A stretch of DNA of 52,401 nucleotides from a virus. The position numbers and the translations under genes are program-made. The first letter of the stretch is position 1. Every line of letters starts with the position of its first letter. Under the pieces are notes generated by a model, which searched no databases, had not been told where the DNA came from, and worked only from the letters and a program-made list of their open reading frames with translations. Of this stretch, positions 3,042-51,061 are shown piece after piece. The stretch lies in the IMG/VR virus record IMGVR_UViG_3300044990_000705, positions 1-52,401 of that record. One strand, 5' to 3'.

Positions 3042-3064
3042 CTATGTTCAAAAATTAAACAAAG
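3042..3064. repeat. 23-bp palindromic repeat, copy 3
   Basis: Lies between the TerS stop and the fibre start. The 3' arm reads AACAAAG and runs into GAGG, so it forms part of the next ribosome binding site. Confidence 0.9.
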
Positions 3065-7139: not shown

Positions 7140-7162
7140 CTATGTTCAAAAATTAAACAAAG
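7140..7162. repeat. 23-bp palindromic repeat, copy 4
   Basis: Identical to copy 3. The 3' arm AACAAAG joins GG to make the ribosome binding site of the gene at 7172. Confidence 0.9.
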
Positions 7163-11185: not shown

Positions 11186-11208
11186 CTATGTTCAAAAATT
11201 AAACATAG
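11186..11208. repeat. 23-bp palindromic repeat, copy 5
   Basis: Begins 5 bases after the spike stop, between spike and the small gene at 11236. Confidence 0.9.
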
Positions 11209-11590: not shown

Positions 11591-12856
11591 ATGAATCCTT
11601 TTAATTCTAGTACAATGAATTTAGTAGATCCAACATTTGAGACGGTTAAGTTAACTAATCTTACAGATGGTTACTTACCAAAGCACACGTCTGATGCAGT
11701 TGGATTGGCGAATAGTCCAATTTATACTAATGGAACTAATGTTGGAATTGGGGCGAATAGTCCAAGATCATTGATGGATATTACAAGTGGATTAGCAAAC
11801 ACCGACGGGAACACATCCAACGGTATCAATGTTACTGCTCCAAACTTAGCCATGACCAGCTCAAATGTCAATTTGCAGATCAACACAAATGATGCTCAGG
11901 CAGCAGATGTGGGTGGAAGTATCGGACTGGGTGGACTATATCGGACTACTGCAAGAGATAATATCACTTATGCGATAATTAAAGGAGCAAAGCTAAACGC
12001 AACAAACGCCACTTATAGCGGATATCTTGCTTTTGGAACCAGAAATCATGGGAATGAAATCGCTGAAAGAGCGCGTCTGGATAATTTGGGAAAATTTGGA
12101 GTCGGAACGGCTACACCAGCATCAACGATTTCATCCAGCGGAAATCTTTCTGTTGGGGCAAATTATGCAGCGGTGGCCGCACCGACTAATGGCGCTATCT
12201 TTGAGGGTAATGTTGGAGTTGGGACGAGTAGTCCAAATGCATCATTACAAGTTAAATCTGATACAAACAAAGAAATACAAATTGGCACAACAACATCAAA
12301 CTACACTACATCAACATATTTTACTGATTTAACTGCGACTTCATCATTGATAAACTTTTCAAGGCCGAGCGATGGAGTATTTGTGAATTCAGTTTTTTCT
12401 TATAATGCTTCAACTTATTGTCATCTTGGATTAGCTGCGAGACATGATTTTGTGTTTGTCTGTGGGGAATTAGAACGACTTCGGTTGACAAGCGCAGGAT
12501 TACTAAAAGTCGTTAGCTTGGCGGGTACAGGAAATCGTGCTGTTTACTCTGATGCAAGTGGAAACCTTACCAACAGTAGTTCTGACGAAAATCTGAAAAC
12601 AAACATATCAAACCTAACTTATGGCCTGTCTCAGGTATTAGCCATGCGTCCAATATTCTATAATTGGATTAATCCTGTACTTGGCGACCAAAGAGAAATA
12701 GGGTTTGTTGCACAAGAGATTGAAAAAATTATACCTGAAGTTGTTGGAATAAACTCAAATGGGATGAAATCTCTTGATTACCCCAAACTCGTAGCAGTTA
12801 TGGCGATGGCAATTCAAGAACTTAACGTAAAATTGGAGGCATACATTAATGGCTGA
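11591..12856 (+). CDS. Tail fibre with C-terminal S74 intramolecular chaperone
   Basis: 421 residues. The body has Gly/Asn/Thr-rich repeats of the type NVGIGANSPRS and NVGVGTSSPNASLQV, common in beta-helical fibres. The end (about 330-421) carries the peptidase S74 signature: SDENLKTNI, then MRPIFYNW, then EIGFVAQEIEKIIPEVV, then SLDYPKLVAVMAMAIQELN. This domain trimerises the fibre and cuts itself off at the serine of the SDEN motif. Its last 8 bases overlap the next gene. Confidence 0.9.
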   Translation: MNPFNSSTMNLVDPTFETVKLTNLTDGYLPKHTSDAVGLANSPIYTNGTNVGIGANSPRSLMDITSGLANTDGNTSNGINVTAPNLAMTSSNVNLQINTNDAQAADVGGSIGLGGLYRTTARDNITYAIIKGAKLNATNATYSGYLAFGTRNHGNEIAERARLDNLGKFGVGTATPASTISSSGNLSVGANYAAVAAPTNGAIFEGNVGVGTSSPNASLQVKSDTNKEIQIGTTTSNYTTSTYFTDLTATSSLINFSRPSDGVFVNSVFSYNASTYCHLGLAARHDFVFVCGELERLRLTSAGLLKVVSLAGTGNRAVYSDASGNLTNSSSDENLKTNISNLTYGLSQVLAMRPIFYNWINPVLGDQREIGFVAQEIEKIIPEVVGINSNGMKSLDYPKLVAVMAMAIQELNVKLEAYING

Positions 12857-13394: not shown

Positions 13395-13417
13395 CTATGT
13401 TTAAAAATTGAACATAG
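13395..13417. repeat. 23-bp palindromic repeat, copy 6
   Basis: The palindrome extends here to 13392-13420 because TAA precedes and TTA follows, giving 12-bp arms with one mismatch. Confidence 0.9.
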
Positions 13418-17359: not shown

Positions 17360-17456
17360 TGTGGTAGCTGGAGTTGTTGGAGATGAGGGAGTTTGGGAAA
17401 GTGTAAAAGGGATTTTCTCTTGGATCATTGATTGTATTGCTATGTTCAAAAAATGA
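17226..17456 (+). CDS. Small hydrophobic protein, candidate holin
   Basis: 76 residues with AAAGGAG 6 bases upstream. Hydrophobic segments lie at ~4-20 (MNILAVITALPGLVKLI) and ~44-72 (VLDVVAGVV ... IFSWIIDCIAMF), separated by a charged linker. That fits a two-segment holin or antiholin. The last five codons are supplied by repeat copy 7, whose TGA is the stop, so the repeat contributes coding sequence. Confidence 0.6.
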   Translation: MIAMNILAVITALPGLVKLIRELMQQLQEQLGPGTGVEKKKVVLDVVAGVVGDEGVWESVKGIFSWIIDCIAMFKK

Positions 17457-17462
17457 ACAAAG
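17440..17462. repeat. 23-bp palindromic repeat, copy 7
   Basis: Encodes the C-terminal AMFKK and stop of the candidate holin; its 3' arm AACAAAG plus GG is the ribosome binding site of 17469. Confidence 0.9.
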
Positions 17463-21817: not shown

Positions 21818-21840
21818 CTATGTTTAAAAAATGAACAAAG
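21818..21840. repeat. 23-bp palindromic repeat, copy 8
   Basis: Starts directly after the stop of the preceding gene; the 3' arm AACAAAG plus GAG is the ribosome binding site of the scaffold gene. Confidence 0.9.
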
Positions 21841-24951: not shown

Positions 24952-24990
24952 GTGACAGATGCTGTGGTGGTCTGTCACTATGTTCAATTT
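24952..24990 (+). terminator. Hairpin after capsid gene, terminator-like
   Basis: GTGACAGA (24952-24959) pairs with TCTGTCAC (24971-24978): 8 bp, 11-nt loop. A run of T (24988-24992) follows ~9 bases later, inside repeat copy 9. The T-run is too far for a textbook terminator, so partial termination or 3'-end protection of capsid mRNA is more likely. Confidence 0.5.
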
Positions 24991-25000
24991 TTAAACAGAG
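24978..25000. repeat. 23-bp palindromic repeat, copy 9
   Basis: T-rich core in the sense direction and AACAGAG 3' arm. Lies between the post-capsid hairpin and the GGAGG of 25011. Confidence 0.9.
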
Positions 25001-28987: not shown

Positions 28988-29010
28988 CTTTGTTTAAAAA
29001 ATGAACATAG
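28988..29010. repeat. 23-bp palindromic repeat, copy 10
   Basis: Starts 2 bases after the stop of 27630-28985. The CTTTG variant is at the upstream end here, the reverse of other rightward copies; GGAGG follows. Confidence 0.9.
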
Positions 29011-30344: not shown

Positions 30345-33300
30345 ATGGCACTTGGAGCAAAGATTCAATTAGATGGTAGCAAGAATTCTCTTGGACCTAA
30401 AATCCAACTTGATGAGGTTGGAAGTGGAGCTCCAAGTTTCATAGATCAAGTTGCTAATGCAGGTTTAGGTGCAGTGGATGCAATTGGGAGTTTGGCAGGC
30501 CAAGCAGTTTCATTCCCAGCAAGCTTGGCGTATGAAGCAGCAGGGCATTTAACTGGGCAAGGGAAAGATGTTGCAAAGCAGTGGGGACAGATACCAGGTT
30601 ATTACACACAGCCAGGGATGATTACTGGTGCGGTTAGATCACTTGCGGGGTTGCCAAGTATTCCACAAGAACAGACTATGGCGGCGAAGTATAGTGAGCC
30701 AATAGCTAAGGCATTTGAGACACTTATTCCATCACAGCAGATTGAAGAAGGTCTTGGTAGGGCAAAGGAACTTGGGGCACCAGAGAAGGTGACTGATGCA
30801 CTTGCTTTTGGTGCTTCGAAGTTCATTGAGTTGATGGCATTTGGAGGTTATCATAAGATAGCAACAGGGGCTATAGGAAAGATCAAAGGGAAGTTAAAGG
30901 AGTATCAGAAAGCACCTACCCCACAAGCACAAGCACAGGCCCAAGGTGATTTGCTTGGAGAGTTGGAAGGAGTTCTTGGAAAACTCAATGAGAAAGGTGT
31001 GGACATTACGGAGTTGAAAGCAACAATTCCAACAATAGCAGACACTCCCATAGCAAGTGAGATGGCAGCCAGAAATGCCCAGACAGCACAAAGGACTAAT
31101 GCTGAGAGCCAGCAGTTTATGCAATCAAGATCAGCACTACAGCAGGCATTAGAGGCTAATGTTCCAAAACCAGAGCCACCAGCCATCATAGAGCCAAAGC
31201 AAACTGGGTTGACCCCGCAAGAGACATTGGAAGCAGCTAAAGTTAATAAGAACCTGACAGGTGATCCACAGATAGTTTCACCTGATGAGTTCAAGACTTT
31301 AGTAGATCAGCAAGCCAAAGTTCCAACACAAGAGAATGTCAGCGCTAAGCTTGAAGCTATGAGAGCAGAAGCAAAAGCGAGGATAGCAGCTGAGCAGAAC
31401 AGGCCGGCAGCAGGTGCAGAAATACCAGTTAGATTGCAACAAGAGGCAGAGAGGACAAATCAGATAGCAAGGGAAGCAGTTAGCAGGCAGAGATCACTTC
31501 AGCAGATGTTGCAGAAAGGAGTGCCGAAAGAAGAGGTTAAGGCTTATCAGCCATCGCCAGCGAAGGTTGAGCCGATAGTTGAGACTGTAAAACAGGCTGA
31601 GGTAAAAGCTGAGCCGCAAAAACCAGTGGTTACTGAAGAACTTTCACCAGCTGTTAGTGAGCAATTGCTAGTTGAGCCAGCTAAAGTTGAGCCACTTAAA
31701 CCAGAACCTGTTGTTGAGAGCAAAGTGGTGAATGAGCCAACCTCTGTTCAAAAAATGAACATAGTTGAAGAGCCAAAACTAGCAAAGAAACCACGTGAAG
31801 TTGTTTTAATTGAAAGAGAAAAACCAGTTTACCATAAATCATCTAATCTTGAATCACTTGAAAATGGATTTCAGAAAAGAGATCTTGGAATTTCATTCTC
31901 CAAAACGCCGGAAACAACATATAGTTCACCAAGAAAACAAGAACCAATTGGGACTATTGGCCAAGTTGAGGCAACATTAAAAGGAAAAGGGCTTAACTAT
32001 CTGAGAAAATCTCATAAGGATTTGATTGAGAATCTTTATGAAGAAGCAACAAAGCAAGATGGACCTTATGATCCATATGTTATTAGCAAACTTCGTGAAA
32101 TGGGAGTTGACTTTGTAGAAAATTTTAATGGCTATGGCAAATCAAGAGAGGGAGAAGTTCATGTTTTAAATCCAGATGCTGTTAAGATAAATAAAACTAC
32201 AAAATTATCTGACTCACTTGATCCAAAAGAAAGAGCAAGGGTTAGTAGGTCTGGACTTTCACAAGATAGTCTTATAACAAAGTTTGAAACAAACAAAGAA
32301 GCAAAGCAGTCTTATGAACTCAACAAGAGACAATTTGCTACAGTAGATGAAGCTAAGACATTCTTTGATACCATACCACAAGAGATTAGGAATGAGTTCT
32401 CACCAGAGATTTTAAAGGTTGGAAAGAAGTATAGGATCGGCACAAAGATCTTGACTGAGATGCCAGAAGAGGAGATAGTAGCTAAGATCAAAGACACAGT
32501 TAAAGAGCTTGAAGATATGGAGCAAGGTAGAGATGTTCCCATGCCGAAGATGGCTGAGCAAATGACAGGTGATCAGGTTTACAAGGCCGTGACAGATATG
32601 ATCCCAGACATCCAAGCAGCACTACAGAATGGCACTAATGTGGAAGTGGTGCACCAGAAACTGGCAAACCTTGGAGATCATGCAGCTACATCACTGGAGT
32701 TTGAGTTGCTTGATAAGATTGAAAGTATGTTGCCGCAGTTGTGGAAGAAGAAAATGGAGATAGATAGTGTGCTTGAAAAGCAATTCTCAGATGCACATAA
32801 AGCAGACATGAAGAGTGCCAAGACAACTGCGGGTGGGAAGGAGATAAAGGTAGATGCAAGTGGATATAATGGAGTTAGTGTTAAGGATATTAAGAACACA
32901 GCAACAGCCATCAACAAGATTGTGGGAAATATAGGAGCAGTTGGTACTGAGGTAGGTGGTGGGAAGCAGAGTAGGTTGAGCTTGTTGAATCAGGCTGAGA
33001 TAGATTCCATTAGAAGGGTTAAAGAAGCAGCACAGAAAGCAGGGAAAGAAGTAGGAGAGTTCTTACTTGAGCTTGGTATGACAAGAGATAACGCACAGAA
33101 GATAGTGGAGACCATTGGTGAGATGGGAGAGGAGAAGGTAGGTAGGAAGGAATTGAGATCTACACCAGAGCAAGTTCAGAGAGTTACTGATGGACTTGAA
33201 AGTGAGATGGATAAGATCAGGAATCCCATTAAGAAGTATTATCAAGAGATGTATGATAAGAGGCAGATGGTTGATACTTATCGACCAGGAGATGGGAATT

Positions 33301-35225
33301 ATCAGAGACAGTTGCCAGGCACTCCACAGACACCACCAGAGTTAAGTGGCAAAGGAATGGGACATACAGCACTATCGCCGCACAACGTTCTTAATGTTTT
33401 CAAAAGTGGTGATAACCCAGTGACTGATGTTATTAAGTCTCATAATGCTTTCACACGGAATGTTAGCAATGGAAAGAAGTGGATAAAGGATTTGCTGAAA
33501 GATGTGCCAGAGATGTCAGCAGAGGCGCAGAAGAAGTTTGAAAATATCTATGATCAGTATAGTGATAGATACAAGCTGAGGGCACAGATAGGCAGGTCAG
33601 TTGCTTCACTTGAGAAGAGGATAGCGAAGAAGAGTGGAAGTCAGAAGGCAGCACTTGAGAAAGAGTTAAAGATAGAGCAAGCAAAGTTTGGTGAAGCTAA
33701 TAAGATGGCAGCTGATATGGCTGCGGATTTTGACACTTTGATAAACTCACCAGAAAGCCCAGCCCTCACTGAGCCAACAGTTAGAATTATGCTTGCTGCA
33801 GATGGCACACTGCCAAGCCATATTAAGTTGAGTCCACTTGAAGCAGATGTAGCAGCGAAGATTAGAACATACTTTGATTCCACAGCAGAGGATATGAAAG
33901 CACTTGGAATGCCAGTGAAAGAGGGTTATGTGCACAGAGTGTGGAAGCCACTTGTTAATAAAGATGTTTTGGAGAGCTCGTTCTTCCAGAGATCTATGAG
34001 AACTCCTTCGATGTTGCGGCAGATGAGCCAGTTGCCAGATGGTAGAACTTGGTTTCCGGATGCTAAAGCCACGTTGGAAAGTTATGTGCCAATTATAGAG
34101 CGAGAGCTTGCTTATAATCCATTCTTGGATAGGTGGAGTAGCTTCATAGATAAGACTGAGAGTCCAAAATTAAGGGCTTATATGCAACAGTGGGTGAATG
34201 ATAACCTTTATCGTAAGCCTGATAGTTTCATGGGCAATGTGAATGCAGCGGCTACAGCGTTTGAGTTTGCTCGTTTGATAGGCCTGTCATTGCCAGTTGC
34301 ATTTAAGCATTTGATGAAAGTGTGGGGCACGACAAGCCAGAACTCGCTTGATGTTAATGCACTTGCGCTTGCAGATACAATGAAAGCACTTGGACAGTTT
34401 ACGAAAGAGAAGTTTGGAGGGATTCCGAAAGATAAAGAGCTTGAAGTGTTTCGATCGTATGTGACTACCAGAGATATTGTTAAATCACTTGATGAGTCAC
34501 CTATAAGTGGTATGCTGGATATGGTTAAGGGTATTCTTGGATCACCTACAGCAACGATAGAAGCTTTTGATAATGGAATCTCAGTGTTCTCAGCGATTCG
34601 TAAAGGGGCGAAGAAAGGAATAGATAGCCAGACCACTGAGAGGGCGATGATTAGAACTATTCTTGATGTCAACTTCAGGTCTGGTTGGGATCAGCCACTT
34701 TGGCTCAAAACAGATGCAGCCAGGTGGATGTTGATGTTCCAGAGCACGCCATATAAGTCAGCAGAATTGAAGTATCAGATGATAAAGCGAGCACTTAATA
34801 ATGAAAGAGATGCTTTTGGTACACACTATGGACAACAGTTGTTGAAATATATGCTAACTATTGGAGCAGTAGAGGCTATTGCCAGGGCTAATGATACATC
34901 AGTTTTAGAGCAAGTTATGCACATGCCATTCTTCAGCCATTGGTTAGCAGGGTCAAAGGAGCAGCCAGGTGTGAAGTTGCACATACCCAAAACTGCGACG
35001 AGTCCACTTGTGGGGTTGGCTTATCATATGAGTTCAAATAGGAAGGGCGCACCAGCAGGATTCAGGGAGCAGTTTGGACTTGATAGAAATTTCCTGCCAA
35101 CAAGGAAAAGTAGTCCGAGTTTGAATAGATATATGAATGCAGCAGATGGGAATAAGAGGAAGTTCAACACTATAACGCAGATGATTCTGGGATTGCAGCC
35201 ACTTGAAGGTGAGAGTGGAAGGTGA
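30345..35225 (+). CDS. Giant internal virion protein with ART-like insert
   Basis: 1626 residues from ATG 30345 (GGAG 7 bases upstream). The N-terminal ~150 residues are Ala/Gly-rich and partly hydrophobic. A low-complexity Pro/Glu/Lys region follows (~390-470). Residues ~466-473 (SVQKMNIV) are encoded by repeat copy 11. Residues ~490-616 look like a polyvalent ADP-ribosyltransferase domain: PVYHKSS, then GISFSKTPETTYSS, then EVHVLNPDAVKI. The remaining ~1000 residues are helical. Huge multi-domain proteins of this kind are packed in the head and enter the host with the DNA, so an ART domain could modify host targets at the moment of infection. Confidence 0.75.
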   Translation: MALGAKIQLDGSKNSLGPKIQLDEVGSGAPSFIDQVANAGLGAVDAIGSLAGQAVSFPASLAYEAAGHLTGQGKDVAKQWGQIPGYYTQPGMITGAVRSLAGLPSIPQEQTMAAKYSEPIAKAFETLIPSQQIEEGLGRAKELGAPEKVTDALAFGASKFIELMAFGGYHKIATGAIGKIKGKLKEYQKAPTPQAQAQAQGDLLGELEGVLGKLNEKGVDITELKATIPTIADTPIASEMAARNAQTAQRTNAESQQFMQSRSALQQALEANVPKPEPPAIIEPKQTGLTPQETLEAAKVNKNLTGDPQIVSPDEFKTLVDQQAKVPTQENVSAKLEAMRAEAKARIAAEQNRPAAGAEIPVRLQQEAERTNQIAREAVSRQRSLQQMLQKGVPKEEVKAYQPSPAKVEPIVETVKQAEVKAEPQKPVVTEELSPAVSEQLLVEPAKVEPLKPEPVVESKVVNEPTSVQKMNIVEEPKLAKKPREVVLIEREKPVYHKSSNLESLENGFQKRDLGISFSKTPETTYSSPRKQEPIGTIGQVEATLKGKGLNYLRKSHKDLIENLYEEATKQDGPYDPYVISKLREMGVDFVENFNGYGKSREGEVHVLNPDAVKINKTTKLSDSLDPKERARVSRSGLSQDSLITKFETNKEAKQSYELNKRQFATVDEAKTFFDTIPQEIRNEFSPEILKVGKKYRIGTKILTEMPEEEIVAKIKDTVKELEDMEQGRDVPMPKMAEQMTGDQVYKAVTDMIPDIQAALQNGTNVEVVHQKLANLGDHAATSLEFELLDKIESMLPQLWKKKMEIDSVLEKQFSDAHKADMKSAKTTAGGKEIKVDASGYNGVSVKDIKNTATAINKIVGNIGAVGTEVGGGKQSRLSLLNQAEIDSIRRVKEAAQKAGKEVGEFLLELGMTRDNAQKIVETIGEMGEEKVGRKELRSTPEQVQRVTDGLESEMDKIRNPIKKYYQEMYDKRQMVDTYRPGDGNYQRQLPGTPQTPPELSGKGMGHTALSPHNVLNVFKSGDNPVTDVIKSHNAFTRNVSNGKKWIKDLLKDVPEMSAEAQKKFENIYDQYSDRYKLRAQIGRSVASLEKRIAKKSGSQKAALEKELKIEQAKFGEANKMAADMAADFDTLINSPESPALTEPTVRIMLAADGTLPSHIKLSPLEADVAAKIRTYFDSTAEDMKALGMPVKEGYVHRVWKPLVNKDVLESSFFQRSMRTPSMLRQMSQLPDGRTWFPDAKATLESYVPIIERELAYNPFLDRWSSFIDKTESPKLRAYMQQWVNDNLYRKPDSFMGNVNAAATAFEFARLIGLSLPVAFKHLMKVWGTTSQNSLDVNALALADTMKALGQFTKEKFGGIPKDKELEVFRSYVTTRDIVKSLDESPISGMLDMVKGILGSPTATIEAFDNGISVFSAIRKGAKKGIDSQTTERAMIRTILDVNFRSGWDQPLWLKTDAARWMLMFQSTPYKSAELKYQMIKRALNNERDAFGTHYGQQLLKYMLTIGAVEAIARANDTSVLEQVMHMPFFSHWLAGSKEQPGVKLHIPKTATSPLVGLAYHMSSNRKGAPAGFREQFGLDRNFLPTRKSSPSLNRYMNAADGNKRKFNTITQMILGLQPLEGESGR
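31742..31764. repeat. 23-bp palindromic repeat, copy 11 (inside a gene)
   Basis: The only copy deep within a reading frame. It is read in frame and marks the border between the Pro/Glu-rich linker and the ART-like domain of the giant internal protein. Confidence 0.9.
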
Positions 35226-35235
35226 TAAGGTGAAG

Positions 35236-35276
35236 TGAACACAGTTAGTTTGTGATGATAACTGTGTTCATTTTTT
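35236..35276 (+). terminator. Intrinsic terminator of the late operon
   Basis: A perfect 12-bp stem (TGAACACAGTTA, 35236-35247, with 35259-35270), 11-nt loop, then TTTTTT (35271-35276). It follows the last rightward gene by 10 bases and lies at the meeting point of the two transcription arms. Its right arm is also the left arm of repeat copy 12. Confidence 0.85.
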
Positions 35277-35284
35277 AAACATAG
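35262..35284. repeat. 23-bp palindromic repeat, copy 12
   Basis: Left arm CTGTGTTCA is shared with the terminator stem; the core is T-rich. Lies between convergent genes. Confidence 0.9.
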
Positions 35285-35287
35285 TTG

Positions 35288-35485
35288 TTATTCAAAATCA
35301 AAACTTTTGTCAAGATCTTTTAATATAAAACTATCAACCTTGAGGTCAAAATTTCCAGCTTTTGTGAATAGAGTTATTGTATGGTCTTCTGTTTCCGCGT
35401 ATATTCCATTATCTTTATAGCCACAGATAGCACTACTACGAAAATAATAAAGCTTGTTTTCTTTATCTATAAACTCAAGGATCAT
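35288..35485 (-). CDS. Small hypothetical protein
   Basis: 65 residues, beta-rich and acidic (MILEFIDKENKLYYFRSSAI). The start overlaps the ATPase gene's stop by 4 bases. It is the last leftward gene. No family recognised; likely co-translated with the ATPase. Confidence 0.7.
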   Translation of the reverse strand: MILEFIDKENKLYYFRSSAICGYKDNGIYAETEDHTITLFTKAGNFDLKVDSFILKDLDKSFDFE

Positions 35486-36423
35486 TTATCTACCTCCCAC
35501 TTTATGTTTAGTTTTTCACTTGCCCATTTTAATGCTTCCAAATGTTCCCTATTTTCTGCTCCAATATCTTTTAAAATCTGTCGTGCTTCTTTTTTATTCA
35601 TCCCTTTTGCTAATAGATCATAAGCCATAACTCTAAATTTACCTAATCTTGTACCATCTTCCCTGAAAGTTTCTGGTGGCTTTTGTTTTATTTCCTCTGC
35701 CACAAAACCAGTCTCAATTATTCCACGCTCAGTTATTCTAAATTTAAAAGGAGGAGACTTTGCCGCAAGATTCAATTTGGCTTGTGTTATTATTCTCCTG
35801 TCACTTCCTTCTCCATCCTCATCAAGAAGTAAAACCGACCTGGCAAGATCCGAGACAGCAGCACTACCAGCGATAGAATCAAGTGAAAGTGATGATTCCA
35901 TATTTTGTTTCTTGTTCACATGCGCCAGTAATAAAATTCCAGTTTTATAAACTGATGCCGTTTCTTGTAGTTGTTCAAAATATGTAGCAGCTCTATTACG
36001 TTCCTGTAACTCAATTAATCGTGCGATTACAGTTAGAGAATCTAAGATAATTAAATCCGGTTTTACATCTTTTATTAACAGTTGTATTTTGTACACATCT
36101 GTCGGACTACCAGTGTCAATCATTCCACTTATTGGTTCCCGATTTCCAACAAGTTTTAGCTTCTTCCAGTTTGGCAAATCCCATTCATAGCAACGTTTCC
36201 TTATCAATGATCCACTGCGCTCAGCATCAAAGATTAGAATTGTCTTTCCTTCTCCAGCGAGTTTATCTGCGAGCCATAAAGAGAACCCACTTTTTCCAAC
36301 TCCGCCACGAGAAGCGAGTATAGTGATGTAGTTTTTTGGTACTAACGGTTCCCACAGCCACTCAATATCACCAATCTTTTCCATAAGATCCTCAATGTCA
36401 AACACTTCATAGTTTTTACTCAT
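35482..36423 (-). CDS. RepA/AAA_25-like replicative ATPase
   Basis: 313 residues from ATG 36423 (ATG 36441 is also possible; neither has a strong ribosome binding site). Walker A ASRGGVGKS (~38-46) and Walker B PDLIILDSLT (~118-127), followed by LLLAHVNKK, match RecA-fold ATPases of the AAA_25/RepA group, which act as replicative helicases or loaders. The C-terminal ~60 residues look like a small winged-helix or helical domain. A consensus promoter lies just upstream (36495-36523). Confidence 0.8.
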   Translation of the reverse strand: MSKNYEVFDIEDLMEKIGDIEWLWEPLVPKNYITILASRGGVGKSGFSLWLADKLAGEGKTILIFDAERSGSLIRKRCYEWDLPNWKKLKLVGNREPISGMIDTGSPTDVYKIQLLIKDVKPDLIILDSLTVIARLIELQERNRAATYFEQLQETASVYKTGILLLAHVNKKQNMESSLSLDSIAGSAAVSDLARSVLLLDEDGEGSDRRIITQAKLNLAAKSPPFKFRITERGIIETGFVAEEIKQKPPETFREDGTRLGKFRVMAYDLLAKGMNKKEARQILKDIGAENREHLEALKWASEKLNIKWEVDK

Positions 36424-36494
36424 AGTAATTGATTCCCACATTTGGTTGTTGGTGTATTATTTCCCGTATTTTTTTATTAATACGTTTTATTATT

Positions 36495-36523
36495 AAAATA
36501 CACAAAAAACAATACATTGTCAA
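36495..36523 (-). promoter_or_regulatory. Putative leftward promoter before RepA-like ATPase
   Basis: On the minus strand a consensus TTGACA (36518-36523) is followed by a 17-bp spacer and TATTTT (36495-36500), about 70 bases before the ATPase start and inside an AT-rich 130-bp gap. Confidence 0.6.
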
Positions 36524-36549
36524 CAAACAAATTCCAACATTTAACATGC

Positions 36550-36572
36550 CTATGTTCATTTTTTAAACAGAG
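36550..36572. repeat. 23-bp palindromic repeat, copy 13
   Basis: Follows directly after the stop of 36573-36761 and lies just upstream of the promoter at 36495-36523. Confidence 0.9.
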
Positions 36573-37270: not shown

Positions 37271-38463
37271 CAGTGAAGTCCTCTTATTTCAGGCACCTTG
37301 TATACAATCAAAGTGTCATCAGGATATATCTTGCGTTGGACAAAGTTCATAGCTTCAAGTGTGCAGATTACTTTCTCAAGTCCCTGGACATCCACATCAC
37401 CTCTGTGCATCATAAGCAGATCGCTTACACGGATACCAGACTGGCCAGCCATACTAACATTAACCATGATCTTTGATAGCACGTCTGCGTGAGTTGCCTT
37501 GCCCACACCACTGAATGTGTTAGGCATGTTTTTTTCCGCTTCCTTTAGCATCTCAATTGCCCTTACCAGGTCATCTGCAGTTACCAGCATTTCATTAGAG
37601 CGGCTTGCACTCATAATCATGCTAAGTTTTAGCACATGATTTCCTCTGCGTTGAAAATAGCCATCGAATTTGTTATCTTTAAATGGCAGATTTTCTTCGT
37701 GGTGTGAGTACCACTCGATCCATAGTTCTTTCATCTCTTCAGTGTAGGTGAACTCACCGGATAGCATTCTCATTTGCTCAAGATCATGCAACAGGCCAGG
37801 GAAGAGATCTTTTTCCAGTGAAGTGAAAGGAACTATTTTCTCTTTGTCCCACTCAAATATAAATATAATTCGTGAAGTAAGTCCACCACCAATAGCATCA
37901 ATAGGCATGGTAGCACGGATAAGGTCAGGAGTGATAGCGCCAAAGAGGTTAACATAGACACCTACAATTTCATCTGTCCCCATTGTCTTTGTTCGGTAAG
38001 TCCATTTGTTTTTGCAGTCGTACCAGTCGGTTAGATCGCTGATAAGTTGGGTTTGGTTATAGCCAATAAAGACCGCAAGTTCCTGTGCCCAAATAGTTAG
38101 CGAGCAATGAAAGGTTCGCTTGCCAGTCTTGAGATCTAAGTCATTGTCATTTGCACCTTGGAGTTCCTGTATCAATGCTTCACGAGTGATAGCTTCAGCA
38201 GCAACCTTTATGTTAAGTTTCTCTATGAAAGGAAAAGCGATGTTCATAGCAGTTCCCTTGCGTGCAGCGGGAGGGCCAACCAGGGCTATGTACATGTTAG
38301 GGTAGAAGGTCAAGGAGCCAAAGACAAACTTACACTTTCGCTGCAAACAAGCAGCAATCAAGCTAATGGCAGACCAAGTGTGATAGCTTGTTGGAGGCTC
38401 AGTGTTTCTGGCATACTGCATGTAAGTTGAGATCCAATCGCTATGAATTCGTGGCTCTGTCAT
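37270..38463 (-). CDS. DUF3987-like primase/helicase ATPase
   Basis: 397 residues. Residues ~60-75 (LVGPPAARKGTAMNI) are a Walker A-like loop in the DUF3987 style. Upstream, YHTWSAISLIAACLQRKCKF is typical of that family's N-terminus. The C-terminus has a winged-helix appearance (~340-390). It overlaps PolA by 23 bp and lies beside all the replication genes, so a replicative helicase or primase-helicase role is likely. No separate primase was recognised. Confidence 0.75.
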   Translation of the reverse strand: MTEPRIHSDWISTYMQYARNTEPPTSYHTWSAISLIAACLQRKCKFVFGSLTFYPNMYIALVGPPAARKGTAMNIAFPFIEKLNIKVAAEAITREALIQELQGANDNDLDLKTGKRTFHCSLTIWAQELAVFIGYNQTQLISDLTDWYDCKNKWTYRTKTMGTDEIVGVYVNLFGAITPDLIRATMPIDAIGGGLTSRIIFIFEWDKEKIVPFTSLEKDLFPGLLHDLEQMRMLSGEFTYTEEMKELWIEWYSHHEENLPFKDNKFDGYFQRRGNHVLKLSMIMSASRSNEMLVTADDLVRAIEMLKEAEKNMPNTFSGVGKATHADVLSKIMVNVSMAGQSGIRVSDLLMMHRGDVDVQGLEKVICTLEAMNFVQRKIYPDDTLIVYKVPEIRGLH

Positions 38464-40831
38464 GTTGTTCCTTTACAAGTTTTTCATAAACAATTGTAAG
38501 TTCTTGTAAAGTTGATTCTTCATTAGTTGCTTTTATCTTCTTGCAATGGCCTTTGTAGAGATCAAGGCCGGCAACTATGTCAACGGGGATTATTAGTTGG
38601 TTACCATTAGGTAAGGTTAGTGGGGTTTCCAAACTACGCTTGATAAGTAATAATACTTTCGCATGGTACTCGAGTCCGAGGGATACTGGAATTTGAACTC
38701 CAACGGAGTCATGGACTTGGATAAGAAACTCCACTCCGTGAAATAGGGACTGGTTGTAGTATATGTATTCCACCCCTCTTTCATTAATGACATCTCCAAC
38801 AGTTCCTTGCGGGATACACGCATAAGCCTCCTTGAAAAGATCATCTCCCCATTCTTGTAGGAAGATAGTTTTGCGATTCATCAGGTTTGTGATAGTACGA
38901 TTATCACTAAGTTGCTTGCGAATATAAGCGTGATAATTATTACGAACTCCAGGATAGGACATGTGATAGCGATCAACAATAAACTTAGCGTCGGTCTCTG
39001 GAATTTCCAAGTAAAGTGCAAATGTTTTATAGCCAAGATCATAATTAAGACCGTGATTAGAACGCTTGCCAAAATATCTCCAGGTCTTATCACCTCCGCC
39101 AATAGGACAGCAAATATTTTCGTCATCTTGTCTTCGAACTTCTTCAACGCTCAAGCCACTTATCAGCGAACCAGTGAGAGAGTGCACATCAAGGTTGTTT
39201 TCAAAAGCTTCCATCATTTGAGTTACTTGGCCAACATAAGCAACAATGCGATTTTCAGCTTGGCTAAGGTCAAAGCCATAGTAAATGTAGCCCGGATCAG
39301 CTAGGAAAAGTTTGAGAATATCATGTGGCTGATTTTGCATATTAGTTCCAGAGCCAAATATACTTTCTCCAGAAGAAATCCTACTGTAGCGAGTCCCGAC
39401 AGGATTGTAAGCGCAACGCATACGATTGTCAGGATCGACTTTAGTAACATCAAGATAAGTTGACTTGCGCTTAGTTGCCCTACGGATTTCCAGAATCTTT
39501 GCTGCTTCCACATGACCTCTGCGAGCGATACGGACGAGAGCTTTTTCATCGGTAGTTACCTTTCCACCTTTCTTATATGGAGGTATGCGTTTGTTTACGT
39601 AGAAGTGGTTTATTAGTTGTTTAGGTGAGTTAGGGTTTAGTTCATATCCACAGATTTCATGCAATTCCTTCTTAAGTTCTTCAATCTTTATTTCAGCAGC
39701 TAAGAACTCTTTGTGCATAGCTTCTACATCAATCAAGATTCCCCGTTCCATAGCGTAGCATAGTGGCTCAACCATTTTAACTTGGCGTTCATAAGTGCCA
39801 ATGTTATCTTGGCCAGCCAGGGTTTCAATTTGCTGAGGAAATGTCTCACCACAGATGCTTGCATCAGTTGCATTGTACTGCCAGAGACGTGGCCAGTTAC
39901 CACCACTGAAATATTTTTTGCCTTCATCTTTGTAGTATTCTTTGTCGGTGTAGATGCTGGTTATGAAGTCCAGGCCAACAGGATAGTCAGGCATAATGAT
40001 CTTCTGGGCTATCATAGTATCGTCGATATTGTGAGTTTTGATTCCAAATCTGCGGAGCAAGAAGTGGGTGTCGAATATTAGATATTGTCCCCGCTTTTTG
40101 ATCTTTGGATTTTCAAGGATGCTTGCTATTTGTAGCCAGATTTCAAGGTCTTGATCGGGATTGAAGTAAAGTCCATGCTCGTTTATGAAAGGTATGGACA
40201 TTATCCTTTGATAATCCCAGCCGATAGCGATGCAAGATACTTCCATGTTCATAAGTTCGATGTCGAAGTCAATAGACATTCCAGCAAGGCCGTTTAGTTC
40301 GCAACTTTTAAGGTATTGCATAACTTGGGTGAAGGTAGGAGCGATTATAAGTTCACGCTGTGAACGATGGAAGCCACTTGCATTTATTCTGGCGGCCTTT
40401 GTAAGGTCCCATTGGATTAATAGCTTGTTGAGATATTGTCCCTCACCACCATATTTTAGTGGTATAGCGCATTCAGGGTGATAGGTAGGAATGATAAACT
40501 TGTTGGGGAGTTCAGGGATTTCAATCACACTTCCACGCCACTTGTTTACTTGTGGTCGATTGCAGAAGATCTTTAAGCATTGTTCGCCAAGAATCACCAC
40601 TGATTTGCAATTTATCTGGTCGAGTTCTTTAGCGATGGATGTTAAGCTAAATTCATCAGGTACTTCGCCGAATTGTTTAGCGATAGTAGTGCAATAGACA
40701 TTATTCCGTGATAGGCCAGAATTGCGTAGGCATTCATCAAGTATTTTACCTGCTGGGCCTGCAATAGGACGAGATTCTTTTAGTTCATCTCGTCCAAGGT
40801 TGGCAGATACTATGATTATTTTAGGATCCAT
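38441..40831 (-). CDS. polA: UDG - 3'-5' exonuclease - family A DNA polymerase fusion
   Basis: 796 residues. The N-terminal ~150 look like a uracil-DNA-glycosylase superfamily domain: GPAGKILDECLRNSGL, YCTTIAK, then TYHPECAI. A DEDD 3'-5' exonuclease follows: SIDFDIE near 172, FDTHFLL near 250, NATDAS near 320. The polymerase has motif A DLSQAENRI (~521), motif B RSNHGLNYDLGY (~595) and motif C VHDS (~703), where most relatives have VHDE. There is no 5'-3' exonuclease. It overlaps the helicase gene. The first UDG motif is degenerate, so glycosylase activity needs testing. Confidence 0.92.
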   Translation of the reverse strand: MDPKIIIVSANLGRDELKESRPIAGPAGKILDECLRNSGLSRNNVYCTTIAKQFGEVPDEFSLTSIAKELDQINCKSVVILGEQCLKIFCNRPQVNKWRGSVIEIPELPNKFIIPTYHPECAIPLKYGGEGQYLNKLLIQWDLTKAARINASGFHRSQRELIIAPTFTQVMQYLKSCELNGLAGMSIDFDIELMNMEVSCIAIGWDYQRIMSIPFINEHGLYFNPDQDLEIWLQIASILENPKIKKRGQYLIFDTHFLLRRFGIKTHNIDDTMIAQKIIMPDYPVGLDFITSIYTDKEYYKDEGKKYFSGGNWPRLWQYNATDASICGETFPQQIETLAGQDNIGTYERQVKMVEPLCYAMERGILIDVEAMHKEFLAAEIKIEELKKELHEICGYELNPNSPKQLINHFYVNKRIPPYKKGGKVTTDEKALVRIARRGHVEAAKILEIRRATKRKSTYLDVTKVDPDNRMRCAYNPVGTRYSRISSGESIFGSGTNMQNQPHDILKLFLADPGYIYYGFDLSQAENRIVAYVGQVTQMMEAFENNLDVHSLTGSLISGLSVEEVRRQDDENICCPIGGGDKTWRYFGKRSNHGLNYDLGYKTFALYLEIPETDAKFIVDRYHMSYPGVRNNYHAYIRKQLSDNRTITNLMNRKTIFLQEWGDDLFKEAYACIPQGTVGDVINERGVEYIYYNQSLFHGVEFLIQVHDSVGVQIPVSLGLEYHAKVLLLIKRSLETPLTLPNGNQLIIPVDIVAGLDLYKGHCKKIKATNEESTLQELTIVYEKLVKEQHDRATNS

Positions 40832-42057: not shown

Positions 42058-42080
42058 CTTTGTTTAAAAATTGAACATAG
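42058..42080. repeat. 23-bp palindromic repeat, copy 14
   Basis: On the minus strand it runs from the stop of 42081-42227 to the AAAGGG before thyX. Identical to copies 15 and 16. Confidence 0.9.
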
Positions 42081-42227: not shown

Positions 42228-42331
42228 CTTAATTTCCTTTCGTCAAAGAAGTTTTTTATTATCACTAATAGTTCTTCAAATAATATTCCAAGTATAAGAC
42301 CAGCCACAAAAAACACAGTTTTAACAAGCAT
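42224..42331 (-). CDS. 35-residue single-span membrane protein
   Basis: ATG 42331 has GGAGG upstream, inside the last codons of the ParB-methyltransferase gene. The sequence begins MLVKTVFFVAGLILGILFEE, a transmembrane segment, and ends basic (NFFDERKLR). Tight overlaps on both sides (11 bp and 4 bp) support a real gene. Early membrane peptides often affect host physiology or superinfection; no function assigned. Confidence 0.65.
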   Translation of the reverse strand: MLVKTVFFVAGLILGILFEELLVIIKNFFDERKLR

Positions 42332-43649
42332 CTTGGCCTCCTCCAAAGTATTTTTCACACTTCAATACATATGAGTTACGATATTCTTCAGTCAGGTCAT
42401 AGCCAATAGGCATCATTTTGTTCAAAGCAGCAGCGATTAGAGTATTACCAGACCCAGCAAAAGGGACGAGAACCTTGGAGCCCTCAAATGCGAAAGTGGT
42501 TATTACTTCTGAAATCATTTCAAGTGGTCGTTCAGTAGGGTGCATTTTATTGCCTGGTGAAACAGGAGGGAATTGGAATATGTTAGAGCGGCCTTCTTTA
42601 GCCAGCACAGGTGAGCCTTTTGAAGCATAAAAGAACATTTCATAAGAGTTAGCAAGAATGCGACTTGGTTGCATAGTCTGGCCACCAGGCTTAGCCCAGA
42701 TGCAAGGTATGCGGCGGAGAGTAAAGCCAGCAGCAACCAGCCACTCATAGATATCATTGAACCAAGGCTCAGGGCCAAACCAGCAGAGGAGCCAGCTATT
42801 GTCAGCCATAACACGATAGCATTCGATAAATAGCTCACGCATCAGCTGTTCATACAAAGGAGCTGGGATTTCATTATAAGTTTCATTGCCAAAATTAGTA
42901 GCCATGCCAGATTTTTGGCTCTTCAGGTTGATGGCATAGGGTGGGTCGATTTCAACAAGGTTAAAGTGGCCATTTGGTAGTTGCTTTATGCCATCGAGAC
43001 AATTGCAGATTTGGTAAGAGGAGCAGATTTTATTCAGAAAGAGATTTTTGCTGCCCATCGCCGCTTCAGCACGCTTTGCAAGCTCGGCTCGGATGTAAGT
43101 TTCTTCAATCTTTCCCTTCAACTTCATTGCATCACTTTTAGTTTTGCACTTATTCCATTCAAGTTGAGGGAACTGGGCTACAGTTTCAGCCAATTTGATA
43201 TCTTGCGACAGGCTTGCAGGGCTAACACCAAGCACAGAAGCAATGTCACGCATAGATACTCCGCTAGCATCAGGGGCAGTGGAAGTCTTTTCACCATGGA
43301 TAGCCTTTTGGATTTCAAGTAGGTCCCGTTTAGCTTGACATTCTTCAAGGAAAGTAAAATCCTTGCGTTTGATGTTCTCCTCGATTTCAATAGACCTGAG
43401 TTCGAGCTCAGTTAGCTCTTTGTCATACACTCTGCAAGGGATCTCGGTATGGCCAAGGAAGCCACAAGCAGTGTAACGGCGTCCACCAGCCACGAGTTTG
43501 TACTTACCATCAGGCATAGTTGTGACAGTTATGGGATTTATGAGTTCTTTTTGCTTAATTGAGAGCGCCAAGTCCTCTATGTCACCATAATCTTCACGCT
43601 TTCGCTCGCCAAAAACTATATTCTTAATTGGAATATTTAAAAGTTGCAT
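42321..43649 (-). CDS. ParB-like domain fused to beta-class DNA methyltransferase
   Basis: 442 residues from ATG 43649 (GGAG 7 bases upstream; it overlaps the previous stop as TGATG). The N-terminal ~100 are ParB/Srx-like (LALSIKQKELINPI, VAGGRRYTAC, EIEENIKRKDFT). A helix-turn-helix follows (MRDIASVLGVSPASLSQDI, ~135-153). The methyltransferase has DPPYAI near 233 (motif IV) before FAGSGNT near 398 (motif I), the beta-class permutation of N6-adenine/N4-cytosine enzymes. It may methylate phage DNA against host restriction, guided by the ParB/HTH part. No cognate nuclease is adjacent. Confidence 0.88.
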   Translation of the reverse strand: MQLLNIPIKNIVFGERKREDYGDIEDLALSIKQKELINPITVTTMPDGKYKLVAGGRRYTACGFLGHTEIPCRVYDKELTELELRSIEIEENIKRKDFTFLEECQAKRDLLEIQKAIHGEKTSTAPDASGVSMRDIASVLGVSPASLSQDIKLAETVAQFPQLEWNKCKTKSDAMKLKGKIEETYIRAELAKRAEAAMGSKNLFLNKICSSYQICNCLDGIKQLPNGHFNLVEIDPPYAINLKSQKSGMATNFGNETYNEIPAPLYEQLMRELFIECYRVMADNSWLLCWFGPEPWFNDIYEWLVAAGFTLRRIPCIWAKPGGQTMQPSRILANSYEMFFYASKGSPVLAKEGRSNIFQFPPVSPGNKMHPTERPLEMISEVITTFAFEGSKVLVPFAGSGNTLIAAALNKMMPIGYDLTEEYRNSYVLKCEKYFGGGQDAC

Positions 43650-43873
43650 CACATAGCTCCAAGTTCTGCTATAAGTTTCATTTTTGCTTCTTTGCTCATG
43701 CCATTTATAAGAGATTCAAGATTTATAGTCTTTGGCTTAGCCTTAGATTTGGCCTTGGATGGTTGTTTGTCAGGTTTAGTGCGCAAATTCTGGCGCCTTT
43801 CCAAGATAAGAGCCATTACTTGATCACGAGGCATTTCAAGTATGCTTAGACATAGGTTGTCTATTGTTGCCAT
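43649..43873 (-). CDS. Small basic hypothetical protein
   Basis: 74 residues. The middle is strongly basic and repetitive (KPDKQPSKAKSKAKPK), flanked by helical ends. This looks like a nucleic-acid-binding linker. It overlaps the ParB-methyltransferase start by 1 base, so the two may work together on DNA. Confidence 0.7.
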   Translation of the reverse strand: MATIDNLCLSILEMPRDQVMALILERRQNLRTKPDKQPSKAKSKAKPKTINLESLINGMSKEAKMKLIAELGAM

Positions 43874-44185: not shown

Positions 44186-44208
44186 CTTTGTTTAAAAATT
44201 GAACATAG
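44186..44208. repeat. 23-bp palindromic repeat, copy 15
   Basis: Begins directly after the stop of the leftward gene 44209-44601; identical to copies 14 and 16. Confidence 0.9.
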
Positions 44209-44601
44209 TTACATGAACTTAGTGATAGTATTCACTGGTGCGCCATCTTGATCTTTGCCTACACCCAGGATAGCCCAGCCTTCAGATCCCTTGATTGCCT
44301 CAAGATCAATCTCTGCCGTAGTGTCGATGTCGAAAGCCTTGAAGAAGTTAATCAAGTCGAGCTTGGACTTGTTAAGGTTCTTCGGCTCCATGCCAGCATG
44401 TGGGAGTTCAAGATACTTGCCAAATTCTTTGAAGTATGGGTCATCAGGATTTTCAAAGAAGGGCATAATGAAGCGATTTCCCTTCTTCGAAGTCCCCTCA
44501 ATTATGTTGATGATGCGAAGTTTTGCCTCTGATCCAGCAGGCAGGACAGTAGGTTCAAATGTGTCAGACAGGTTGATAGAGGTAAGGTCGAGAATAGTCA
44601 T
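44209..44601 (-). CDS. DUF669-like putative ssDNA-binding protein
   Basis: 130 residues, beta-rich core. SEAKLRIINIIEGTSKKGNRFIMPFFE (~24-50) and the following AGMEPKN and DLINFFKAFDI segments match the DUF669 pattern of phage proteins next to Sak4-like ATPases, often taken to bind single-stranded DNA. It lies just downstream of such an ATPase in the same operon. Confidence 0.7.
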   Translation of the reverse strand: MTILDLTSINLSDTFEPTVLPAGSEAKLRIINIIEGTSKKGNRFIMPFFENPDDPYFKEFGKYLELPHAGMEPKNLNKSKLDLINFFKAFDIDTTAEIDLEAIKGSEGWAILGVGKDQDGAPVNTITKFM

Positions 44602-44626
44602 TTTTAGGTCCTTTCATTTAGATGAT

Positions 44627-45433
44627 TTAGATTATTGTTTTGTCTTCATGGTTGATTTTGGCTTTCTTTAAGATCGCTTTAATGTTGGCTTCTTCATACT
44701 GCGACAGCAGACCATCCTTTGCCAACCGAGAACGGGCAACATAGGTGCCAGTTGATTGAGTGAGGATTCGGTAGTCAACTCCTTTCGAGCCACTTTTTGG
44801 GCTCATTACCCAGATCTCGTCAAAGAGAAGAGGGATAGTTTGTACACCTTTGCCTGTGGTAGCGTAGCGATAGGATACGCCGCCAGTTACTTCATCCTTG
44901 TAGCTTTCCAGGTGGCCAGTTAGGATGAAATCACAGGGAAGTGAGAGTAGCTCACGTAGCCAGTTACGGATTTCAATCTTTTGTGGGTTATAGTCATGGG
45001 TGAAGCGGGGAGCAGCACCGGCCAGGCCAGCACGCTTCAAGATTTCGTTCATGATAGATTCAGCCCAAGTAGTGCTGCTATCGAGGCAATAAGTGCCAAG
45101 CATTTCAAAATAGCCAAGTTGCTCACGCTTAGCCATTTCTTTCTTCCAAAGCTCGAAAGCAAAGGGTTTTTTAGGATCTTCATTGCCATAGCGAGAATCG
45201 ACAATCACTTCACCCTTTTTAATATACTCATCAAGGCCCTTAGCACCACCAGGGTCGAAAGAGTCAATGTGGACAGGCTTGCGAGCAGTTCTCATCAGGA
45301 AGGTCTTTCCACTGCCGCTTTCACCAAGCAATAGACAATTGAAGCTATGGTTGCTCTTATCCTCGGCGTACATTGACTGAAGTTTAGCAACCTCCGCTTT
45401 TATTTTCAGCATCTTTTCATCGTTCATTTTCAT
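44627..45433 (-). CDS. Sak4-like RecA-fold ATPase
   Basis: 268 residues from ATG 45433 (45427 also possible). Walker A CLLLGESGSGKTF (~35-47) and Walker B TYCLDSSTTW (~112). ILTGHLESYKDE follows, typical of the AAA_24/Sak4 group of phage single-strand annealing or recombination ATPases. With the DUF669-like protein and the nuclease at 45820 it forms a recombination/replication-restart set. Confidence 0.78.
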   Translation of the reverse strand: MKMNDEKMLKIKAEVAKLQSMYAEDKSNHSFNCLLLGESGSGKTFLMRTARKPVHIDSFDPGGAKGLDEYIKKGEVIVDSRYGNEDPKKPFAFELWKKEMAKREQLGYFEMLGTYCLDSSTTWAESIMNEILKRAGLAGAAPRFTHDYNPQKIEIRNWLRELLSLPCDFILTGHLESYKDEVTGGVSYRYATTGKGVQTIPLLFDEIWVMSPKSGSKGVDYRILTQSTGTYVARSRLAKDGLLSQYEEANIKAILKKAKINHEDKTII

Positions 45434-45796: not shown

Positions 45797-45819
45797 CTTT
45801 GTTTAAAAATTGAACATAG
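45797..45819. repeat. 23-bp palindromic repeat, copy 16
   Basis: Begins directly after the stop of the nuclease gene; its AACAAAGGA end is the likely ribosome binding site of 45611-45787. Confidence 0.9.
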
Positions 45820-47509: not shown

Positions 47510-47532
47510 CTATGTTTAATTTTTGAACATAG
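47510..47532. repeat. 23-bp palindromic repeat, copy 17
   Basis: Lies between the ligase stop (3 bases away) and the GGAGG of 47291-47500. Identical to copy 18. Confidence 0.9.
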
Positions 47533-49068: not shown

Positions 49069-49091
49069 CTATGTTTAATTTTTGAACATAG
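49069..49091. repeat. 23-bp palindromic repeat, copy 18
   Basis: Follows the stop of 49097-49432 on the minus strand. A partial extra half-site (ACTAAACATAG) lies ~35 bp away at 49033-49043. Confidence 0.9.
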
Positions 49092-49096
49092 GTGGG

Positions 49097-49432
49097 TTAT
49101 TTTATGACTTCAAAAGGGACGTTGATGAAAGGCGTATAGATTTTATCTTTGTAAAATGTAATAGCCCCAATTCCATCAATGTAGAATGTTTTCTTTCCAT
49201 CATAAGAATAATTGAAGTCCCAACAATTAGAGTGCCAACAGATAGAGCACTGGCCCTCAGAGTCTTCATTTTCATCATTCAAAGGATAAGGGAGAAAACT
49301 AGGTTTGAAAGTTATGTTGTATTGTGGATAAGTAGGATGTTGAGCATAGAGGTTTTTAGTGTAAGCATCAGCATTTGCAGATAATAAGCAAACACCAGCC
49401 ACAGCCATGATAGAGCGTTTTAAATAGTTCAT
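49097..49432 (-). CDS. Exported protein with signal peptide
   Basis: 111 residues. MNYLKRSIMAVAGVCLLSANADAYTK is a clear Sec signal peptide (basic start, hydrophobic core, cleavage after ADA near residue 23). The mature part has a CSICWHSNC cluster that could bind metal or form disulphides. An early periplasmic phage protein suggests envelope modification or superinfection immunity. No family recognised. Confidence 0.8.
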   Translation of the reverse strand: MNYLKRSIMAVAGVCLLSANADAYTKNLYAQHPTYPQYNITFKPSFLPYPLNDENEDSEGQCSICWHSNCWDFNYSYDGKKTFYIDGIGAITFYKDKIYTPFINVPFEVIK

Positions 49433-49593
49433 TCTTTGTTCCTTTCATTTAATTGATTTAGATATTCAGTTAGAGATGCTATTGTAGTTTCAATTTCCTC
49501 TTTTATTTGACTCAGAGTTGTAGCATCATCAACTCCACAAGAGAAGATCTCACATTCATCCAGCAGAGATAGTTTAAGGGATTTTATCATCAT
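49429..49593 (-). CDS. Small helical early protein
   Basis: 54 residues. ATG 49593 overlaps the previous stop (TGATG); a second ATG at 49590 is equally possible. Acidic, with helical C-terminal half (LSQIKEEIETTIASLTEYLN). It ends overlapping the exported protein start by 4 bases. Function unknown. Confidence 0.65.
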   Translation of the reverse strand: MMIKSLKLSLLDECEIFSCGVDDATTLSQIKEEIETTIASLTEYLNQLNERNKE

Positions 49594-49835
49594 CAGGTTT
49601 CCACAACAAATACTTTTAAGTTATCTTTGGCTAAAACTCTTGTTATGTTAGTTCCATTTATTTTGGCCTCACAATTTACAGTTACAACTGGGATCATCTT
49701 GTCACCTGCAAGAGATTGTATGGTTACTTGCAGGCCACCAGTTATTCCTTTTGCCCTAAATGTGAGCACCCGCTCTTGGCCATCGACAGAGATGATAGCT
49801 TGGAAATTAGAGTAGTCTGGTTTTTTCTTACTCAT
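49593..49835 (-). CDS. Hypothetical early protein
   Basis: 80 residues with AAAGGT upstream. Almost all beta (AIISVDGQERVLTFRAKG ... GLQVTIQSLAGDKMIPVVTV). No family recognised. It follows a strong intercistronic hairpin (49848-49877). Confidence 0.7.
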   Translation of the reverse strand: MSKKKPDYSNFQAIISVDGQERVLTFRAKGITGGLQVTIQSLAGDKMIPVVTVNCEAKINGTNITRVLAKDNLKVFVVET

Positions 49836-50498: not shown

Positions 50499-50521
50499 CT
50501 TTGTTTAATTATTGAACATAG
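50499..50521. repeat. 23-bp palindromic repeat, copy 19
   Basis: The AACAAAG end is part of the ribosome binding site of 50311-50487. Core is ATTAT. Confidence 0.9.
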
Positions 50522-51038: not shown

Positions 51039-51061
51039 CTTTGTTTAAAAAATGAACAGAG
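51039..51061. repeat. 23-bp palindromic repeat, copy 20
   Basis: Only 540 bp from copy 19, the closest pair. The AACAAAGGAGG end is the ribosome binding site of 50897-51028. Confidence 0.9.

Follow-up and report, generated by a model that had tools for sequence, protein, structure and literature searches.

We find that a 23-bp palindrome that recurs before gene starts in a 52-kb phage genome (here called the window; the whole stretch of 52,401 bp that was analysed) also lies in frame within the gene for a giant internal virion protein, and that, as judged from genome comparison, such in-frame copies mark the borders of exchangeable modules in several phages and for two palindrome types. We consider it probable that the palindrome is a DNA-binding site that doubles as a seam for effector-module exchange in this polyvalent protein. 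Under such a scheme a dimeric phage protein would bind the palindrome ahead of gene starts, on DNA and not on RNA, and one site would be kept inside the giant protein, where it would be read through as the harmless linker SVQKMNI. Effector modules (ADP-ribosyltransferase (ART)-like, GNAT, lytic transglycosylase, peptidase) would enter, leave or be replaced beside it, with an insertion leaving either one copy, as in the window and its relative G001, or one on each side, as in the relative G019. Being short, nearly identical and repeated, the palindrome could be the place where homologous or microhomology recombination joins the modules, and once in frame it would stay so, because a swap between two in-frame copies does not shift the phase.

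The palindrome has the consensus CTNTGTTYA-W5-TRAACANAG, with 9-bp arms and a 5-nt loop (9-5-9), and occurs 20 times in the window when up to two differences from CTATGTTYAWWWWWTRAACATAG are allowed, compared to 0.01 copies expected from dinucleotide shuffling. All positions are given on the plus strand. Copies 1 (253–275) and 2 (1648–1670) are followed by copy 3 (3042–3064), which precedes 3079–6813; copy 4 (7140–7162) ends, and copy 5 (11186–11208) starts, at an edge of homology with G001; copy 6 lies at 13395–13417, and copy 7 (17440–17462) ends at a homology edge. Copy 8 (21818–21840) adjoins a Shine-Dalgarno sequence, copy 9 (24978–25000) is followed by GGAGG and ATG, and copy 10 (28988–29010) is the last one before copy 11 (31742–31764; CTCTGTTCAAAAAATGAACATAG), the copy read in frame within the giant protein. 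Copy 12 (35262–35284) sits directly 3' of the giant gene at a homology edge, and the remaining copies are 13 (36550–36572), 14 (42058–42080, preceding a minus-strand gene), 15 (44186–44208), 16 (45797–45819, its end a homology edge), 17 (47510–47532), 18 (49069–49091, its end likewise an edge), 19 (50499–50521) and 20 (51039–51061). A second repeat of 35 nt, unrelated to the palindrome, is found near minus-strand gene starts at 44598–44632 and 49429–49463 (86% identical). The contig ends (1–46 and 52356–52401) overlap by 46 bp, and 1–44 together with 156–199 form an imperfect inverted repeat, with palindrome half-sites around a very A+T-rich stretch, in what is possibly an origin or packaging region.

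Most copies stand immediately before genes. In 118 of 148 non-redundant copies a start codon follows within 40 nt, at a median distance of 11 nt, and in 95 a Shine-Dalgarno-like stretch is present at or after the repeat end; repeated occurrence at a short and constant spacing from the start codon is also the pattern of the start-associated sequences (SAS) discussed below. A relaxed scan of relatives places 259 of 277 copies outside long ORFs, which bears out the description of the repeat as intergenic elsewhere in the initial annotation of this DNA. Bacteria and archaea (84,980 genomes) yield only 7 single matches, roughly the chance level by our own estimate, and the palindrome is phage-specific. 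We propose that it is the DNA site of a dimeric phage protein, placed before gene starts by this phage group.

The giant protein (30345–35225, plus strand; ATG at 30345) is 1626 residues long, and its gene closes the plus-strand virion block, downstream of the terminase, portal and major capsid genes. It is a giant protein encoded among virion genes, as polyvalent proteins are, and of conflict-type domains it carries only the ART-like segment, while homologues carry more kinds, namely a GNAT and an ART-like region in G019 and an SLT domain in G005. The position of the gene suggests that the protein may be delivered with the DNA. Copy 11 reads S-V-Q-K-M-N-I, then V, so the in-frame SVQKMNIV previously reported for this ORF is correct. 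The repeat had also been placed exactly at a domain border; a border is indeed close by, but not exactly there, as DNA homology with the nearest relative, G001, ends at 31780, 16 bp past the repeat, and the first ART-like motif begins 60 bp downstream. The insert that holds the ART-like segment (ART-B; insert at 31781–32288, plus strand) is A+T-rich and absent from both G001 and G019: the G+C content of 31770–32288 is 34.1%, compared to 44.1% in the rest of the giant gene, and just 28 of the 1453 windows along this gene are as poor in G+C.

Comparison with these two IMG/VR genomes, which lack the insert as the proposed alignment with homologues called for, reveals other modules at the same spot. 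G001 is a close relative, with 94% identity over the C-terminal 980 residues of the giant protein, and G019 is more distant (52%). The window and G001 share a 59-bp island of homology at 88% identity around the in-frame repeat (31722–31780, plus strand), and both flanks of this island are unrelated between the two phages. ART-B lies to the right of the repeat in the window, while G001 has a different ART-like segment (ART-A; DIDLYHGG...GEGWYGTD) to the left, and only 67 bp to the right before homology with the window resumes. In G019 an acetyltransferase of the GNAT type (Pfam Acetyltransf_7, E 1.7e-4) is flanked by two identical in-frame copies, and three modules therefore occur at one homologous spot. 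A module border at the in-frame repeat is supported by the 59-bp island and the G019 cassette, which are also the strongest single observations for exchange. Elsewhere in these genomes, two conserved palindromes enclose an AAA-type gene (35285–36550 in the window, 33538–34762 in G001), and the intervening DNA has no BLASTN match between the phages, which resembles the replacement of a repeat-bounded cassette; at 49174–49619 of G001 two palindromes lie just 423 bp apart, with no clear counterpart in the window for the DNA between them.

Across the relatives scanned, in-frame palindromes number 11 in 9 genomes, all within the giant protein, with one copy each in the window, G001, G003, G012, G017, G002 and G021 and two each in G019 and G005. 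All 11 are read in a single phase as S-V-x-x-x-N, while an alternative phase is open in every variant. An internal copy is found in 9 of 14 giant proteins and in 0 of 17 other ORFs of at least 800 residues (Fisher p 1e-4, with classes assigned by hand and genomes partly related). ART-like or lytic domains lie within about 20 residues of a copy in several unrelated giants. In G005 an SLT lytic domain (Pfam 2e-30) is followed by both copies, in G003 the copy lies about 10 residues past the end of an ART-like domain, and in G017 the copy is followed by a peptidase-like stretch (GHEGFH) and by an ART (phage ART profile, E 9e-10). This count of borders is biased, because some ART-like regions were noticed by adjoining a repeat.

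A second palindrome type extends the pattern. The distant homologue G337 (22% identity) lacks the window-type palindrome, and an open palindrome search of it finds 10 copies of GATAGTTCA-W5-TGAAYTATC, also 9-5-9, and 0 in the reversed control. One of these lies in frame in the giant protein of G337, in the other phase and encoding DSSKNALS, directly after an ART-like domain. It had been argued that ART regions without the repeat in distant phages would refute the link; G337 lacks the window's repeat and has its own in-frame palindrome at the ART border, which strengthens the case, and the association of an in-frame site with a module border thus extends beyond a single type of palindrome. A further in-frame copy occurs in G337 (12519–12541), close to the C-terminal end of a tail-like ORF of 1207 residues and with an ATG 10 nt downstream, perhaps at an overlap of two genes, and the giant protein is therefore not the sole possible place for one.

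We then asked how well the insert itself resembles an ADP-ribosyltransferase. The segment at 31824–32193 (plus strand) carries the ART-like motifs PVYHKSS, which starts at 31824, GISFSKTPETTYSS, GVDFV and EVHVLNPDAVKI, which ends at about 32190. HYD-type ARTs carry His, Tyr and Asp in strands 1, 2 and 5, respectively, according to the available text of PMC5512222; by eye, a candidate His (PVYHKSS) and a candidate Asp (GVDFV) are present in putative strands of ART-B, and Ser (GISFS) stands where the HYD type has Tyr. Searches against Pfam, NCBIfam and PHROG, including the Pfam model PF18760, yield no credible match at E up to 10. No sequence relative turns up in IMG/VR or, at E up to 1, among the collected phages, and plasmids give a single match at E 0.2. 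A search of 300 bacterial genomes with PF18760 found no members, and the controls gave no match either; a hand-made ART motif pattern was dropped, as it matched nothing, not even ART-B. A profile built from 15 phage ART domains (hmmsearch) recovers ART-A weakly (E 0.0017) and gives ART-B a non-significant E of 0.09, a score equalled by 4 of 100 shuffles. The best support comes from the ART-like region of G337, which matches ART-B by BLASTP at E 0.012, with 0 of 40 shuffles as good. AlphaFold2 run without alignments failed to fold ART-B (pLDDT 39.9), because relatives are lacking, and failed on ART-A as well. The ART-like motifs of the initial annotation are thus where it put them (31824–32190), while the ART fold is putative and the profile scores are weak. 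On these motifs and the G337 match ART-B is rather probably an ART; that it is an active one is less probable.

We also compared the positions at which homology between genomes begins and ends. Of the 56 homology edges in the comparison of the window with G001, 6 fall within 12 bp of a repeat, compared to 1.06 expected at random. Set against repeat-free gene starts, edges occur at 6 of 20 repeats vs 7 of 49 starts on the window side (Fisher p 0.12) and at 6 of 18 vs 5 of 53 on the G001 side (p 0.025), and comparisons with G019 show no excess of edges at repeats. The earlier suggestion that two genes were fused, or a domain inserted, by recombination at the repeats holds up as to the module border, while edges are not clearly above those at gene starts; the comparisons lend support to recombination at the repeats, which we infer as the cause, with no clear excess over ordinary gene starts.

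Several other explanations could account for parts of this pattern. A hairpin acting in RNA, as a leader element or terminator, with the in-frame copy incidental, would fit the 9-bp arms and 5-nt loop and the slightly better folding of the in-frame copy than of its shuffles (z -2.67), but it is very unlikely, since the other tested copies give z of -0.16, -0.86 and -1.71, C.A mismatches exceed U.G wobbles in transcript orientation (29 vs 12), and Rfam returns no match to the palindrome; on these findings we reject a hairpin as its main role, and the palindrome most likely acts as DNA. No compensatory changes prevail across the copies. The peptide might instead be what is selected, with SVQKMN acting in domain release, either as a linker motif or as a site of processing, and the DNA likeness secondary. 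The same peptide and phase do recur in nine genomes, mostly with Ser at position 1 and Thr or Pro ahead of it, and the GNAT of G019 is flanked on both sides; yet synonymous positions match the intergenic palindrome, Val being GTT in 11 of 11 copies and Asn AAC in 10 of 10 despite AAT making up 73–85% of Asn codons, so that the DNA is conserved and not the peptide alone. The G337 variant encodes an unrelated peptide in another phase at the same kind of border, which makes a peptide signal unlikely, and we regard this account as highly improbable. We give still less credence to a mobile palindromic element that inserts in frame, like the Rickettsia palindromic elements: a repeated palindrome is found in frame in proteins here too, but it is only 23 bp, keeps a fixed distance before starts and is not scattered through genes, occupies corresponding positions in relatives, and is at about chance level in bacterial and archaeal genomes.

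Two further accounts are weightier, and each is unlikely in our view, the second a little more so. In one, the in-frame palindrome is retained because of what it does as DNA, in site spacing or internal regulation, and domains merely insert in the same disordered linker. Conservation at the DNA level needs no recombination; sites occur every few kb in the window, and removal of copy 11 would leave a gap of 6.3 kb, the largest; edges at repeats are not clearly in excess of those at gene starts; and the copies of G002 and G021, 27–36 residues from the N-terminus, have no recognised domain adjoining. The in-frame copies are in low-complexity linkers, which tolerate insertions anywhere, and we count this against the seam. 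What such a coincidence fits poorly is a homology island of merely 59 bp around the repeat, a G019 module between two identical copies, and the closeness of ART-like and lytic domains to a copy in several unrelated giants. In the other, the giant gene grew as stop codons were lost between adjacent genes, and each in-frame copy is the former start-associated site of the gene that followed it, with no special role in recombination. The start association of the intergenic copies agrees with this, as do the complete SLT domain ahead of the G005 copies, the AAAGGTAAATTG that follows the copy in G012, and the gtgaaggaATG after the copy in G017, a Shine-Dalgarno-like stretch and in-frame ATG that resemble a former gene start. 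However, the window, G001, G003 and G019 retain no Shine-Dalgarno sequence or start codon downstream of the copy, and fusion leaves unexplained why a different module adjoins the same copy on the right in the window and on the left in G001. A seam for module exchange is the reading that we retain as probable.

The best candidate for the protein that binds the palindrome is a fusion of ParB_N, an HTH-like region and an N6_N4 DNA methyltransferase (42324–43652, minus strand), because ParB-family proteins bind palindromes. The fusion is encoded by all long palindrome carriers searched, and by G337 and Desulfofustis phage MD01, and together with the polymerase and a DUF3987 protein it has relatives in all 11 phages compared. 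The HTH region varies among phages that share one palindrome, which counts against ParB as the binder, and the palindrome is best described as a candidate cognate site of the fusion. The small terminase subunit (2491–3039), also DNA-binding, was set aside, as searches recovered no relative of it in G337, a phage with a palindrome of its own. A family A DNA polymerase of the window (38441–40831, minus strand) is fused at its N-terminus to a domain of the uracil-DNA glycosylase superfamily (Pfam UDG, E 3.9e-11). By terminase, the nearest relative with a name is MD01 (OP947158, PMC10370329), at 42.5% for TerL and 48% for the major capsid protein; it has the same gene set as the window and 9 copies of a third palindrome type, CTATGTYCCAAWTTGGRACATAG, and differs in its inner half-sites and in an unrelated giant protein without an in-frame copy. 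We designate the palindrome types CTATGTTCA, CTATGTCCC and GATAGTTCA, the last being that of G337.

Each of these elements has a counterpart in known systems. Iyer et al. 2017 (PMC5512222) described phage polyvalent proteins and proposed that they accrete domains from solo modules; the shared features are a giant protein among virion genes and ART-like, GNAT, lytic and peptidase domains whose order varies in relatives. In the available text of that paper the joining of domains is not tied to a DNA repeat, whereas here an intergenic palindrome marks the module border, and ART-B matches no Pfam model. The SAS/ESAS elements of cluster K mycobacteriophages (PMC3203893) are likewise short, partly inverted repeats, many per genome, directly before starts and conserved among relatives; their architecture is different and in-frame copies inside a giant protein are not mentioned in the accessible part of that report, so that the palindrome would be an analogue and not a member. 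parS and KorB operators (PMC11790492) are dispersed sites of a ParB-family dimer, and the carriers here encode a ParB_N-methyltransferase fusion as candidate binder, but the palindrome has a 9-5-9 layout and the candidate's HTH region is variable under the same site. Phage ParB-CTPase/N6N4-methyltransferase fusions (PMC12704722) have the same domain pair as 42324–43652; the excerpted text of that study describes no cognate DNA site, for which the palindrome is a candidate. Accreted polyvalent domains, start-associated repeats, ParB-type operators and ParB-methyltransferase fusions are thus known, and, as far as we have searched, their meeting in one seam is new.

Polyvalent proteins gain and lose effector domains, and how the pieces join without a break in frame becomes testable here, because a defined DNA signal that can be searched for stands at the proposed seam in several genomes and another signal does so in a second lineage. 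In-frame palindromes may also guide the search for undiscovered effector modules beside them, and the palindrome offers a candidate DNA site for widespread phage ParB-methyltransferase fusions. A broader proposal, which we put forward as doubtful, is that phages with such fusions use their dispersed binding palindromes as phase-locked in-frame seams in their giant ejection proteins, where the site-binding protein might itself promote exchange and across which effector cassettes would be swapped between phages.
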